Origin: Candidatus Poribacteria bacterium
Lineage (GTDB): Bacteria; Poribacteria; WGA-4E; WGA-3G
Assembly (NCBI GenBank): GCA_026706025.1
Contig: JAPOZO010000063.1
Span: forward strand, 62,001-126,000
Reading direction: 5' to 3'
DNA length: 64,000 nucleotides
In this document: piece after piece, positions 1 through 5,738 of the stretch
How positions within the stretch are numbered: position 1 is the first letter of the stretch
Layout of the letters: every line of letters starts with the position of its first letter
Notes under the pieces: model-generated
Databases searched by the model: none
Told to the model about the DNA's origin: nothing
The model's input: only the letters and a program-made list of their open reading frames with translations
Translations under genes and position numbers: made by a program

Positions 1-661
1 ACTTATAGAAACACGAGAACAGTGCGCGTTCGGCTTCTTCTTCTGTAATTGACGTGGCGAGTTCGGCATCAGTAGGTTGTGTGCCAGCAGCAAGTTCTAT
101 TCGTGGGCAAAAACCGATTTCCGCTGCGCCACCCGGGTGCGCCGGTGCTTTCCAACCCGCGTCAAAGTTCAGTGTCGTTTCAGGCACGTACATCCTGAAC
201 GACACAACTTTCTCTCGGATTCGGTCAATAACCAAGTGTCCAGTAAATTGCGAAGGCGTAAACCACCCATTTTCCATGACGAATTCGGCGTGGATACGGA
301 ACAGAATCTCGGCAAATTCGTTATTGTAAGCACGCAGACATGCCCACAAACCAAAAGAATCTCCATTATTGATGTGCAAATCCAAGCTCGGATTCGGGTG
401 AAGTTGCCTTAGCAACGTTAGCGCGCCTTCTGCTTGAATCTGCCAGCATTCACCCACCGAAACAGCTTCCGATGGCAGAAACGCTTGAAAAACGGAGGCA
501 AGATACTGCTTTTCGGGTTCAGCGACCCGAAAGTTCGCCAACTCGTCCCACTTCACGTGGAAGTTGTATTGCGTGTATTCGATCGGCGCGATGAAGCCTT
601 TGACGTTAACTTCTGTGTCCCTATCAAGATTAAGCGTGATTTTGTTTTCTAAGGTTTCCAT
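1..661 (-). CDS. Selenoprotein-family paralogue 3, N-terminal part (runs off left edge)
   Basis: An open minus-strand frame starts at ATG 661-659 and is uninterrupted to base 1, giving about 220 residues. It begins METLENKITLNLD and aligns along its length with the first halves of the two complete paralogues to the right, sharing GFIAPIE, SVGECWQI, GLWACLRAYN and the IHAEF-E-GWF-PSQ block. The start is 1 base after the TGA stop of the neighbouring copy, so the two are almost certainly translated from one message. The window ends before the position where the other copies have Ser-Cys-TGA, so the thioredoxin-like half and the predicted Sec codon should lie about 40 codons further left. The function of this N-terminal domain is unknown; the family assignment comes only from its paralogues here. 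Confidence 0.85.
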   Translation of the reverse strand, partial: METLENKITLNLDRDTEVNVKGFIAPIEYTQYNFHVKWDELANFRVAEPEKQYLASVFQAFLPSEAVSVGECWQIQAEGALTLLRQLHPNPSLDLHINNGDSFGLWACLRAYNNEFAEILFRIHAEFVMENGWFTPSQFTGHLVIDRIREKVVSFRMYVPETTLNFDAGWKAPAHPGGAAEIGFCPRIELAAGTQPTDAELATSITEEEAERALFSCFYK

Positions 662-662
662 G

Positions 663-2219
663 TCAGTTCTCCTCTACAGAAATTTTTGCGCGAAAGGCAT
701 TGATACACGGTTCATCTTTCGCCCAATGTCCGGTAACACCCAACTTAAAAAATTGACCTCGGTCGAAAGCGTGCGTGATTTGACGGGTGTCACCGGGTTC
801 TCCCCACTCCCAAGTAAGCATGTCTTTAGGAGTTTCTTCTTCTGTGGAGAGTTCGGTATCGCCATCAAACAGATAGAACGCTGCTTCCCCCTCTTCCCTA
901 CCAATTTCAATGTCAACGGTTAGCGTGCCTCCGTTTTCAAATGCCGTGGCATCAATCACAACTACGGTATAATCCTGATGGTTTCCAGCCGTTGGAGTCC
1001 GAAAAATGTCCAACACCGATTGCGAAGTCTGCTCAGGGGTGAGAACAATGTTCCCCAATCCGGGTTGTTTTCCTTCTAAGGCTGCCTTGAGAAACGCGAA
1101 ATAATACTCATGTTTCGACAGTCCGCTACGCTCACTGTCTTTACCGAGGTCATTGACCAGTAGTCTACCCATCAGTTCAAACCCTGGTGATATGACGAAA
1201 CAATCTACCGGTGAACCTTTTTTCGCGCCGATTTTCTCCCCTTTGATCATTGCTTGTGCTAAAGGGTTCGATGTGTCAAAAGTCTTACCCTCGCGTTCGC
1301 GTCTTTTGGCAATCGGTTCCCGCAAACCAGGGATACGTCCTAATTCACAGTTGGGGACCCATGTATTGATGAAATTTTCGTTCAAAAATTCAATAACTTC
1401 GTCTTTGGAGAGCACACGTGCCCTCAGGCTTTTACCGCTCCCTCAGCACGACTCGTCCAAGAGCGGGCCATCTATTGAGATGGCATGGATCGGTTTCTGT
1501 TGTGCAGGAACCATCTTTAACGCTTCTTCCAGCGATACCCAGTTAATTTGCGCCGATTTGTAAAAACGTAACATCAGTGCGTGCAATGCTTCCTCTTGGG
1601 TGATCGCTTCCGTGAATTTAGCATTTTGCAAAACGTCTTGTTCACCTGCACAGAGTTCCATTTGCGGGCAAAATCCGGCATCGGCTGCGCGGAGTCCTTC
1701 TCTAATTCTCCAACGTACATCGAAGTTCAGGGTGGCATCCGGAACGTGCATCTTGAAGGCAACAACTTTCTTTTTTAACCGGTCAATAACCATATATCCG
1801 GCAAGCTGCGATGGCGCAAACCAACCTTTTTCTAAAACGAATTCCGCGTGGATACGGAACAGAATCTCAGCAAACGCATTATTGTAGGCGCGTAGACATG
1901 CCCACAAACCGTAAGAATCCTCGCCACCAATTTCCAAATCCAGTTGTGGACTCGGATTGAGTTGTCGTAACAGCGTTAGTGCGCTTTCTTCTTCAATCTC
2001 CCAGCATTCACCTACAGAGACCGGTTCTTGTGGCAGAAAAGATTGAAAAACCGAAGCAGGATATTGCTTTTCGGGTTCAGCAACACACAGATTCGCTAAT
2101 TCGTCCCACTCTACGTGGTAGTTCCGTTTGGTGTATTCAATCGGAGCGATGAAGCCTTTGACAGACACTTCTGCGTCCGCGTCAAGATTAAGTGCAATTT
2201 TGTTGTTAAAAGTTTTCAT
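663..2219 (-). CDS. Predicted thioredoxin-like selenoprotein, paralogue 1 (in-frame TGA = Sec259)
   Basis: Read through one TGA at 1445-1443, this is a 518-residue protein. Residues 1-258 form an unrecognised N-terminal domain (start ATG 2219, MKTFNNKIALNLD) ending ISIDGPLLDESC. TGA follows the Cys codon and the same frame continues GSGKSLRARVLSKDEVIEFLNENFINTWVPN, with no start codon until GTG 1415. The Ser-Cys-Sec-Gly motif before a helix-like stretch and the later PVDCFVISP strand resemble a thioredoxin-fold redox site, with Sec in a catalytic position. The last 125 or so residues are a strand-rich domain of unknown role. The paralogue at 2647-4236 has TGA at the same place with conserved protein on both sides, which argues against a random stop. 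A conventional annotation would split this into two hypothetical proteins (1443-2219 and 663-1415). No Sec machinery genes are in the window. Substrate unknown. Confidence 0.75.
1404..1445 (-). promoter_or_regulatory. Candidate bacterial SECIS element, copy 1
   Basis: On the message strand the bases from the TGA onward can fold into an outer stem (GAGGG, including the GA of TGA, with CTCTC) and an inner GCC/GGC stem closing a TGAG loop about 16 bases after the TGA. Bacterial SECIS hairpins lie directly downstream of the UGA with a G near the start of the loop, which this fits. The same bases are nearly unchanged in the second copy. The fold was judged by eye, without an energy calculation. 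Confidence 0.45.
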
Positions 2220-2322
2220 TTCTCGTTATGAACTTCCTTTCCGGTATAGGATACCATTGCTATCAGAAGGTGGCAATGATTCGCTTATACACGCCTTTGG
2301 ATGCACTTTTACAGACCCAGTA

Positions 2323-2617
2323 GGTGCGGTTTGCAACCGCACCATAGGTGTCAATTTAGCGGCTTTAATGGCATTTTGTCGAGTAGATATAAACATACTG
2401 AAGAAACACCCTATCAAAAACCCCTTACAGGGCTAAGGTCCTTACTTGATACCGCTGCTATAAACATATCGTCCTTACAGGACTGAAGAGGTTTTTGAAG
2501 TTATCAAGGTTTCCGCGTAGAATCCGGTTCGGTTGCAAACCAAACCTACCGGACCTGGGGGTCGCGACGATTATTTTTTCTAAAATTGACACCTATGGTG
2601 CGGTTTGCAACCGCACC
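2323..2617. mobile_element. MITE-like element with 38-base terminal inverted repeats
   Basis: This fills most of the 427-base gap between two selenoprotein paralogues. Its ends are inverted copies of one about 38-base sequence: each outer end is the palindrome GGTGCGGTTTGCAACCGCACC, followed inward by ATAGGTGTCAATTTAG or its complement, differing by one indel and the order of the central TTGCAA bases. There is no transposase frame inside. The interior holds two CCTTACAGG hairpin-like motifs about 50 bases apart, a layout that recurs as CCCCTACGGGG at 31276-31350. Target-site duplications are not clear. It is probably a non-autonomous element. Confidence 0.6.
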
Positions 2618-2646
2618 GGACTTCGTTAAGAAATTTAGGACACAAC

Positions 2647-4236
2647 CTAAGGGTTTTCCGTTGGTTCTACAGCGATCCTTGCTTGAAAGGCGTTGATACT
2701 CCCTTTCTCATTAAACCAAGTTCCTGTAGCACCCAACTTAAAGACTTTACCACATTCAAAACGATGCCGGATTTCGCCTATCTGTCCGGACGGAACGTCC
2801 CATACAGAAGTGAGTGCTTCATTAGGAATTCCCTTTGTCGGTAGTTCGGTGTTGTTATCAAAGAGATCGAATGACCCCCCCGGTTTTGCAGTGCCCATCC
2901 GAATATTAATGGTGAGTGTGCCACCGTCTTCAAAGGCAGTCGCATTAATTTCAACGACAGTATAATCTTGATACCCGTATCTCGGTGTACGAAGAATATC
3001 CAGTACTTCTTGTTCAGTCTGTTCACGATTGAGCACAACGTTCAAACCGCTTGGAGGCGAGTCTGAAGTTTCATCGGCAAATCCGGGAAGTTTACCATCT
3101 AAAGAATCCTCAAGAAACTTAAGGTAGGCATCCTCTTCTGGAATATCCCTTTGCGAACAGTCATCAAAGAAATCATTTAGCGGGAGTTTCCCCATCACAT
3201 CGAATTCTGGGGCAATAACTAAACAATCCACAGGCGAATGTTCTTTCCACCCTTCCATGATGGCTTTTGCTAACGGGTGTGTTCTGTCAAATGTTTTGGA
3301 TAGATCCTTACGTCTTCGTGCCATGTAGGCTTGTTTTCTGGGCGTGCGTTCTAATTCGACATTGGAAACCCAAACGTTAATGAAGTTTCCATTCAAGAAT
3401 TCGATAACTCGGTCATCAGAGAGGACACCTGCCCTCAGGCCCTTGCCGCTCCCTCAGCAGGACTCATCAGCCAATGGGCCGTCTATTGAGATGGCGTGAA
3501 TTAATTTCACCTGTTCTTCTGCCATCTCCACCGCTTGATATGGGGATACCCAGTTAATTTGTTCTGACTTGTAGAAACGTCCTGCTAACACGCGTTCTGC
3601 TTCTTCTTGGGTGATAGATGTTAAAAATTCTATGTTCTGCGCAACATCTCGCGCCCCAGCACGGAGTTGCATTTGCGAGCAAAAACCTGCATCCGTAATA
3701 GAATAAGATGCCTCTTTGTCTTCTTTCCAACCGATATCGAGGTTCACCGTGCCTTCGGGGACGGACATTTCAAAGAAAGCAATCTTTCCTTTAAGTCGGT
3801 CAATTATAAGATTTCCGGCAAACTGCGAAGGCGTAAGCCAGCCATCCTCTAATTTAAACGCCGCATGAATCCGAAACGCGATGTCGGCGAATCTATCGTT
3901 GTAAGCACGTAGGCATGCCCATAGTCCGATCAAATCTCCCGAACCATCGTCCGTATTCAGATTTAGGACAGTATGTAATTGCCTGAGCAACGCCAGCACG
4001 CCAGATTCCTGGATCTGCCAGCATTCACCCACTGAAACCGGTTCATCTGGCAGAAACGCTTGAAAAACAGATACGTGATGCTGCTTCTCTGGTTCGGCGA
4101 CGCGCAAATTCGCCAATGCCTCCCACTCTATATGGAAATGGGACAGTGTATGTTCAATCGGCGCGATGAAGCCTTTAACGGACACTTCTGCGTCCCCGTC
4201 AAGACTGAGTGTGATTTTGTTGTTCAAAGTTTTCAT
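2647..4236 (-). CDS. Predicted thioredoxin-like selenoprotein, paralogue 2 (in-frame TGA = Sec261)
   Basis: Read through the TGA at 3456-3454 this gives 529 residues. Residues 1-260 (start ATG 4236, MKTLNNKITLSLDGD) match the N-terminal domain of the paralogues. They end ISIDGPLADESC, then TGA, then GSGKGLRAGVLSDDRVIEFLNGNF in the same frame. The downstream half contains a PVDCLVIAP strand like that of copy 1 and a closing strand-rich domain ending FQARIAVEPTENP. Compared with copy 1, it has a longer loop (DETSDSPPSGLN) before the C-terminal domain. ATG is 2 bases after the TAA of guaB, so the two genes are probably cotranscribed. Coupling to guaB does not by itself imply a role in purine synthesis. 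Read as two genes it would be 3454-4236 and 2647-3396. Confidence 0.75.
3415..3456 (-). promoter_or_regulatory. Candidate bacterial SECIS element, copy 2
   Basis: Directly downstream of the TGA the message strand can pair GAGGGA with TCCTCTC (one bulged T) and, inside, GCC with GGC around TGAG. Relative to copy 1 most bases are identical and the differences fall mainly in the spacer and the distal arm. This DNA-level conservation is consistent with a selected RNA structure overlapping code, although recent duplication could also explain it. Confidence 0.45.
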
Positions 4237-4238
4237 TT

Positions 4239-5738
4239 TTATCCGTCTTCCGTTGTTCTTGGGATAATATCGTGAACACCGCCTTCACGGATACTTGCTG
4301 AAGAGACTAACACAAATCTCGCTTTTTGACGAAATTCCGGTAGGGATATCGCCCCACAATTACACATAAGCGACCGGATTTTTGCGAGGGTCGTTTTCAA
4401 ATTATCGTTCATCTTGCCTGCATAAGGCACATAAGCATCAGCACCCTCCTCGAACAGTAATTCTGGACCGCCACCCTCATGGTAGCGTTGCCAATTGGAT
4501 GCTCGCTTTGTGCCTTCTCCCCAGTATTCTTTCACTGTATTCATCCCCAATTTTCTCAGCTTACTCGGACTTTCATCAAATCTTGCGAAATATCTGCCCA
4601 TCATCACGAAATCGGCACCCATAGCAAGTGCCAAACCGATATGATAATCTTGGAAGATACCACCATCTGAGCAAAGCGGCACGTAAACACCGGTTTCCTT
4701 CAAATACAGGTCTCTTTGCCGAGCGACTTCAATGACGGCAGTCGCTTGCCCACAACCGATGCCTTTCTGTTCTCTTGTTATACAAATAGCACCGCCACCG
4801 ATGCCCACCTTTACAAAATCAGCACCGGCTTCTACCAAATACATGAATGCATCTCCGTGAACGACATTCCCGCCGCCCACTTTTACAGCATCACCGTACT
4901 CATTTTTGATAAATCGGATGGTGTCTGATTGCCATTCTGTATACCCTTCGGAAGAATCAACACAAATAACATCAACACCCGCTGCGACCAATGCTGGTAC
5001 TCTCTCTCTGTAATCTCGTGTATTAATTCCGGCACCCACGACAAGTCTTTTCTGGGAATCTACGGATTCAAGTGGATTTTTCTTGTGGTCATCGTAATCC
5101 TTCCTGAAGACCAAATGTACCAGTTTACGATTTTCATCAACGATCGGCAGACAATTTATCTTGTGTTTCCAAATGAGGTCGTTGGCATCCTCAATCGTAA
5201 TTCCCTTTTGACCGACAATCAGTTCAGGAAACGGTGTCATGAATTCGCTTACTTTGGCGTTTAAATCCACTCGACTCAATCTATAATCCTTATCCGTTAT
5301 GAGTCCGAAGAGTTCTCCTGAAGACGAGCCATCTTCGGTTATGGGAATCGTCGAGTGTCCAGTTTCTTCGGTTAGCTTCACGACATCTTCTATTGTATTA
5401 TCACATTTCAAATTTGAGTCGCTGACGACGAAACCGGCTTTGTGGTTTTTAACTGCCCGGACCATCGCTACCTGCTCTTCAATACTTTGGGACCCATAAA
5501 GAAAAGAGACCCCACCCTGTCTCGCCAGTGCAATTGCCAAATTGTGGTCCGAAACGGCTTGCATGATCGCAGAAGCAAACGGAATATTCACTTCCAGAGA
5601 CGGTTGTTGCCCTACTTTAAACTTCACGAGAGGGGTTCTCAGGATAACGTTTTCAGGGATACAATTCTTCGTCGTTAAGTTAGGTAAAAGCAGGTATTCG
5701 CTGAAAGTCCGGCTTGCTTCAGAAAAAAAGTGAGCCAT
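4239..5738 (-). CDS. guaB: Inosine-5'-monophosphate dehydrogenase
   Basis: IMPDH oxidises IMP to XMP with NAD+, the committed step to GTP, in the cytosol. The 499-residue product is the usual family length. It has the (beta/alpha)8 core split by a CBS pair at about residues 95-215 ([19 protein letters not shown] through [11 protein letters not shown]). The catalytic loop is [18 protein letters not shown], with the nucleophilic Cys, and the phosphate-binding stretch follows as CSDGGI and [13 protein letters not shown]. Start ATG 5738 has a strong AGGAGG 8 bases upstream. It reads into selenoprotein paralogue 2 with a 2-base gap. The catalytic loop most resembles the CBS-containing class that carries GIG-GQATA. 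Confidence 0.95.

Follow-up and report, generated by a model that had tools for sequence, protein, structure and literature searches.

Genes A and B, two tandem paralogues on the minus strand of a Candidatus Poribacteria contig, are almost certainly bacterial selenoprotein genes in which an in-frame TGA encodes selenocysteine (Sec). The codon, the downstream hairpin, the Sec machinery, the conservation of the site and the predicted fold were established computationally. The first-pass annotation of this DNA had called the two genes likely unrecognised selenoproteins, a proposal supported by the machinery, the TGA conservation, the SECIS hairpin and the evidence that both halves of each gene belong to one protein; Sec insertion itself we infer.

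Tandem genes with an in-frame TGA codon

The window, i.e., the whole 64-kb stretch that was analysed, belongs to a host genome that comprises 6.27 Mb on 103 contigs. Read through its TGA, gene A (663-2219, minus strand) encodes 518 amino acids and ends at a terminal TGA stop (663-665); its Sec codon (1443-1445, minus strand) corresponds to residue 259, within the segment DESC-U-GSGK. Gene B (2647-4236, minus strand) encodes 529 amino acids, with the Sec codon (3454-3456, minus strand) at residue 261. The in-frame TGA described for the same site of both paralogues was therefore confirmed, at residues 259 of 518 and 261 of 529. Under the standard code, the two genes are read as ORFs of 258, 250, 260 and 249 amino acids, which are the four short ORFs that standard pipelines had been expected to report. 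Exactly two TGAs in the window have at least 150 open codons before them and at least 100 after, and these are the TGAs of genes A and B.

The initial description of two tandem paralogues was correct as to both genes but incomplete, since the array consists of four (C63:59466-66236), with one TGA in each. The start portion of the third occupies positions 1-661 (minus strand) and runs off the left edge of the window, its TGA (Sec258) being located outside, at approximately G000:C63:61890. Six further paralogues were identified on contigs C56, C34 and C2, and all ten copies in the genome carry one TGA each. The initial argument weighed the TGAs of genes A and B against two independent nonsense mutations at one codon; they are not independent events but were inherited by the paralogues, and the real evidence is the conservation of the codon over 157 distinct homologues.

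Based on our own reading of the translations, the gene upstream of gene B on the same strand (window positions 4239-5738) is IMP-dehydrogenase-like; it ends 2 nt before the gene B start, and the two genes are possibly co-transcribed. The neighbourhoods of the paralogues, read in the same manner, showed no consistent function and include ABC permeases, WD40 proteins, a sigma factor and a BlaI/BlaR-like pair. In the second selenoprotein cluster, on C56, WD40-repeat-like proteins (L157:10056-11132 and L157:13449-14477) alternate with the selenoprotein genes. A sigma-70-like regulator, also assigned from our own reading (L157:16361-17692, G000:C56), is located beside this cluster, and shares with the selenoproteins the beta-sandwich domain at its C-terminus.

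Conservation and distribution of the Sec site

At the aligned site, 174 of 175 genes of relatives carry TGA, and the codon is kept by nearly all of the approximately 158 distinct Poribacteria homologues. In 157 distinct genes this is the only in-frame TGA. Among them, pairwise identity is as low as 27%, and the C258-U259-x-x-G262 motif is invariant; the Cys before Sec, the Gly at +3 and the Arg at +7 never vary, while +4 is occupied by either Lys or Arg. Besides these 157 genes, one has TCA at the site and one, L078, has the TGA and a second, later TGA. In this last paralogue (L078:1343-2908), which has an extra C-terminal domain, the second TGA replaces the Arg of an RTP segment and probably reflects either a true nonsense mutation or an error.

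An exact motif search of 85 Poribacteria genomes located approximately 340 TGA sites (summed from the table of matches) in 63 genomes, and a reversed control pattern gave no match. The TGY version of the motif, which would encode Cys, was not found in the same search, so that the check proposed earlier, for Cys homologues, was negative in these 85 genomes. Homologues with Cys at the Sec site are the usual supporting evidence for bacterial selenoproteins, and most selenoproteins have them; they are not a defining feature, but the failure to find any counts against the selenoprotein reading. Their place as evidence is taken here by the conservation of the SECIS hairpin, by the codon-position evolution downstream of the TGA and by full-length variants with Ser or Gly.

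The family is present in 65 of the 85 Poribacteria genomes, where its copy number reaches about a dozen, and is limited to one order within the phylum among the genomes searched. With gene A as the sole query, we recovered 69 relatives from the GTDB collection, all of them from Candidatus Poribacteria, and a search of the host phylum gave the same family. Searches of plasmids and of viral contigs did not find the family. Relatives outside Poribacteria may exist.

A conserved SECIS-like hairpin

Downstream of both TGAs, we identified a predicted bacterial SECIS hairpin, at 1408-1425 (minus strand; GAGGGCACGTGTGCTCTC) in gene A and at 3421-3436 (minus strand; GAGGGC AGGT GTCCTC) in gene B. Numbered from the first TGA base (position 0), the hairpin spans +20 to +35 (or +37), with a 6-bp stem and a loop of 4 or 6 nt that begins 23 nt after the UGA and has G at its second position in 148 of 152 sequences. 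The published bacterial SECIS model requires a loop of 3-9 nt, a stem of at least 4 bp, a G in the first two loop positions, a loop located 16-37 nt after the UGA and an MFE of -7.5 or lower (PMC13188914), and the family hairpin agrees with it on every point.

All six pairs form in 148 of the 152 distinct sequences, as compared with a mean of 6.4 and a maximum of 12 in 100 shuffles in which synonymous codons were redrawn from the usage of the genes themselves; the mean local MFE is -8.84 kcal/mol, versus -2.56 +/- 0.17 kcal/mol in the shuffles. Codon choice within the hairpin is markedly biased: the Leu codon at +33 is CTC in 146 of 152 sequences (19% elsewhere), and for the Arg at +21 every sequence uses AGG or AGA (26% elsewhere). 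Additionally, paired changes occur at +23/+32 and +24/+31 (G-C to A-T, and G-T/G-C to A-T), and 20 sequences keep the full stem by means of a 2-nt slide of the 3′ arm. RNAalifold selects the same short hairpin. A longer alternative hairpin (+3 to +37) competes in some sequences, which counts against the proposed fold, but it is less conserved, its lower nine pairs being complete in 69 of 145 sequences versus 141 of 145 for the short hairpin.

Selenocysteine machinery of the host

The first-pass annotation had suggested looking for selA, selB, selC and selD in the same genome, and all four were found above their cut-offs. The tRNA-Sec gene selC (78.1 bits, gathering cut-off 47) adjoins selB (352.8 bits, cut-off 242) on C84, while selA (604 bits) and selD (360 bits) are located on C89 and C56, respectively. 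Rfam and tRNA scans of the 64-kb window gave nothing, the tRNA-Sec having been found genome-wide on another contig. The host selD has an in-frame TGA of its own, in the segment KCAG-U-ASK, a recognised Sec site of SelD (classic GUxSK); it therefore serves as an internal positive control. SelB exceeds the cut-off in 76 of the 85 Poribacteria genomes. Five genomes contain the family with no SelB above the cut-off; since they are 73-83% complete, assembly gaps can explain these cases.

One protein across the TGA codon

The differences between homologues at the three codon positions are similar downstream (0.214/0.147/0.473) and upstream (0.235/0.152/0.503) of the TGA, indicating that both sides are equally constrained as protein. 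In addition, the family includes natural copies with a sense codon at the site. A Ser variant (TCA) in L070/L163 is open over model positions 1-528, and a Gly variant (GGA) in L137 is open over the entire protein; because their reading frames cross both halves, the halves are one protein. The Gly copy (L137; G062:C115:4166-5767) and the Ser copy (L163; G085:C82:175886-177475) are otherwise intact, so that not every copy requires Sec. The Gly copy retains a perfect SECIS-like hairpin, suggesting a recent loss of Sec.

These observations bear on the reading that each locus encodes two proteins, the first ending at the Cys and the second starting at a downstream GTG or TTG, possibly through translational coupling. 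It had been stated that no usual start follows the TGA closely. This does not hold for gene A, where a GTG lies 10 codons downstream, though inside the SECIS hairpin; gene B has a TTG 20 codons downstream, and among the 158 homologues 75 have a TTG at +6 and 53 have a TTG at +20 as their first start. Nevertheless, none of the start codons beyond the TGA is conserved across these homologues, in most of which 34-66 codons separate the TGA from the first ATG, and both the +6 TTG and the +10 GTG fall in or at the hairpin. Moreover, a division at this point would separate the first strand of the thioredoxin fold from the active-site helix, TAA or TAG never replaces UGA in the aligned genes, and the search for relatives with a genuine end at the Cys and a separate gene behind it, with a conserved start of its own, gave none. 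With the Gly and Ser variants being continuous ORFs, we consider two proteins per locus very improbable.

The open frame across the UGA would also be expected if the codon specified another residue, such as Trp, through a reassigned code, or if it were read through independently of a SECIS. This is equally hard to sustain, given that the 64 kb contain only two such TGAs, that TGA terminates ordinary genes here, gene A included, and that the conserved SECIS-like hairpin occurs together with a full Sec machinery. A reading as degenerate pseudogenes in tandem, all having inherited one nonsense codon, finds some support in the large tandem arrays of varying size and in a few partial copies. Nevertheless, the constrained codon-position pattern points to the same purifying selection on downstream as on upstream codons, and the TGA and its flanking residues are invariant across the family, which leaves decay as an extremely improbable explanation. 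Sec-encoding genes, each with a single product, remain the reading that we adopt.

Predicted structure and comparison with known families

The AlphaFold model of the gene A product (37 family sequences; mean pLDDT 88.7) consists of three domains, all encoded on the minus strand: a mostly beta N-terminal domain (residues 1-213; 1581-2219), a thioredoxin-fold domain in which Sec follows the first strand and precedes the first helix (residues 214-388; 1056-1580) and a C-terminal beta-sandwich (residues 389-518; 666-1055). The last has structural matches (Z 9-11) among the pre-peptidase C-terminal and collagen-binding beta-sandwiches and dominated the fold search with the whole model; for this reason, the Sec domain was predicted (pLDDT 90.1) and searched alone. 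In the predicted models and their PDB matches, this domain has a beta-alpha-beta core whose first helix carries the active site at its N-terminal end. Thus, the earlier suggestion of a thioredoxin-like segment with the TGA at a redox-active position is upheld by the predicted fold as regards the position, but the TGA is located inside the domain and not upstream of it. The site is a vicinal Cys-Sec pair (DE[S/A]C-U-GSGK), with Sec at the place that the first Cys of CxxC takes in this fold. An ungapped reading against the DUF255 consensus offers the lead that Sec presumably corresponds to the first Cys and Gly262 to the second. The cis-Pro position that is usual for the fold is occupied by Pro in the main group but not in the shorter subfamily, a point against the proposed reading.

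The best structural matches to the Sec domain are DsbH/Thioredox_DsbH (PF03190) and Thioredoxin_7 oxidoreductases, with the active-site helix starting at the Sec position. DsbH (2ju5) was the top match (Z 11.4, 125 residues, 3.7 A); 7tkv, 3ira and 2kuc scored a Z of approximately 10, a Thioredox_DsbH protein 10.1 and DsbD-gamma 8.9. The best Foldseek E-value, 1.5e-4, was also to a Thioredox_DsbH protein. In sequence comparisons, weak Pfam matches in 7 of 20 members (best E 0.017) remained below the PF03190 gathering cut-off; the relation to the thioredoxin fold therefore rests on structure. Whereas the DsbH group has CxxC, the family has U-G/A-S/T-G directly preceded by Cys, this U-x-x-G with its Cys being invariant in 157 genes, and, unlike in the DsbH group, the Sec domain is fused to two extra beta-rich domains. 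The same fold is found in ERp18/19 (1sen, ERp19, Z 10.7) and AGR2/AGR3 (3ph9, AGR3, Z 10.4; 9i3f, Z 10.1), but these proteins are eukaryotic and have no Sec.

Pfam and NCBIfam scans gave no significant match for the proteins A and B or for the Sec domain, and PDB sequence searches gave nothing or chance matches only. The selenoprotein models of NCBIfam release 20 did not match the Sec domain either. The Sec-containing bacterial SelD shares the decoding route with the family, as the TGA of the host selD illustrates, but the enzyme and its motif are unrelated. Catalogued CU selenoproteins such as KCU-star, SaoC, SaoL and MbdU (PMC13188914, Table 1) have Cys directly before Sec, as in the family, from which they differ in that no NCBIfam model, theirs included, matches its Sec domain. 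The Trx7/PDZ selenoprotein NF041199, listed with a Trx7 domain and Sec, has Sec at the second position of CxxU, whereas it is at the first position in the family, and showed no NCBIfam match to it. A 2026 review tabulated 119 prokaryotic selenoprotein families (PMC13188914), and no entry of this table has the family motif or comes from Poribacteria. Likewise, we found no paper in the open literature that names Poribacteria selenoproteins or contains the motif string. The family may be present, unnamed, in recent machine-learning MAG catalogues or in subscription papers.

Domain composition varies among the members. The basic form seems to be the N-terminal domain followed by the Sec domain (approximately 360 amino acids in G014), to which the C-terminal beta-sandwich seems to have been added in the form found in the window. 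In the paralogue on C2, L027, the Sec domain is continued by domains of the TPR-like and AhpC/TSA-ResA types, and this fusion suggests a role in thiol redox reactions. A simple pattern picked out signal-peptide-like starts in 36 of 159 genes, and a lipobox in some of these, but in neither gene A nor gene B; the paralogues with such starts probably act outside the cytoplasm.

Proposed mechanism and biological meaning

The redox chemistry, the partners and the location of the proteins are those that we infer as follows. SelB would bind the hairpin, with its loop beginning 23 nt downstream of the UGA, and the in-frame UGA would be decoded as Sec by tRNA-Sec together with SelB. The product is a single protein of approximately 520 amino acids, in which, according to the model, the beta-rich N-terminal domain is followed by the DsbH-like thioredoxin-fold domain and by the beta-sandwich at the C-terminus. 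Sec would replace the nucleophilic first Cys of CxxC, with Gly at the second CxxC position and the invariant Cys just before Sec. The selenolate may attack a disulfide or a peroxide, and resolution by the adjacent Cys would give a Cys-Sec selenenylsulfide, to be re-reduced afterwards by some partner. We regard it as rather likely that the proteins are thiol/peroxide oxidoreductases of this type, engaged in thiol/selenol redox reactions.

The vicinal Cys-Sec pair with Gly at the resolving position would represent an unusual thioredoxin-fold chemistry that is directly testable. Since gene callers split every member into two hypothetical ORFs, much of the Poribacteria selenoproteome goes unseen. 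SelA and SelB were found to be enriched in sponge symbionts in a 2017 sponge metagenome study, in which the selenoproteins were not named (PMC5649159), and the family would supply a product for this enrichment in one phylum. Tentatively, and with somewhat less than even confidence, we propose that the family is specific to Poribacteria and multi-copy, reaching about a dozen genes in a genome, with cytoplasmic, exported and lipoprotein forms, that it never has Cys at the catalytic site and works through a thioredoxin fold bearing the vicinal Cys-Sec pair, and that it would be a main reason for sponge-associated Poribacteria to keep the Sec machinery.
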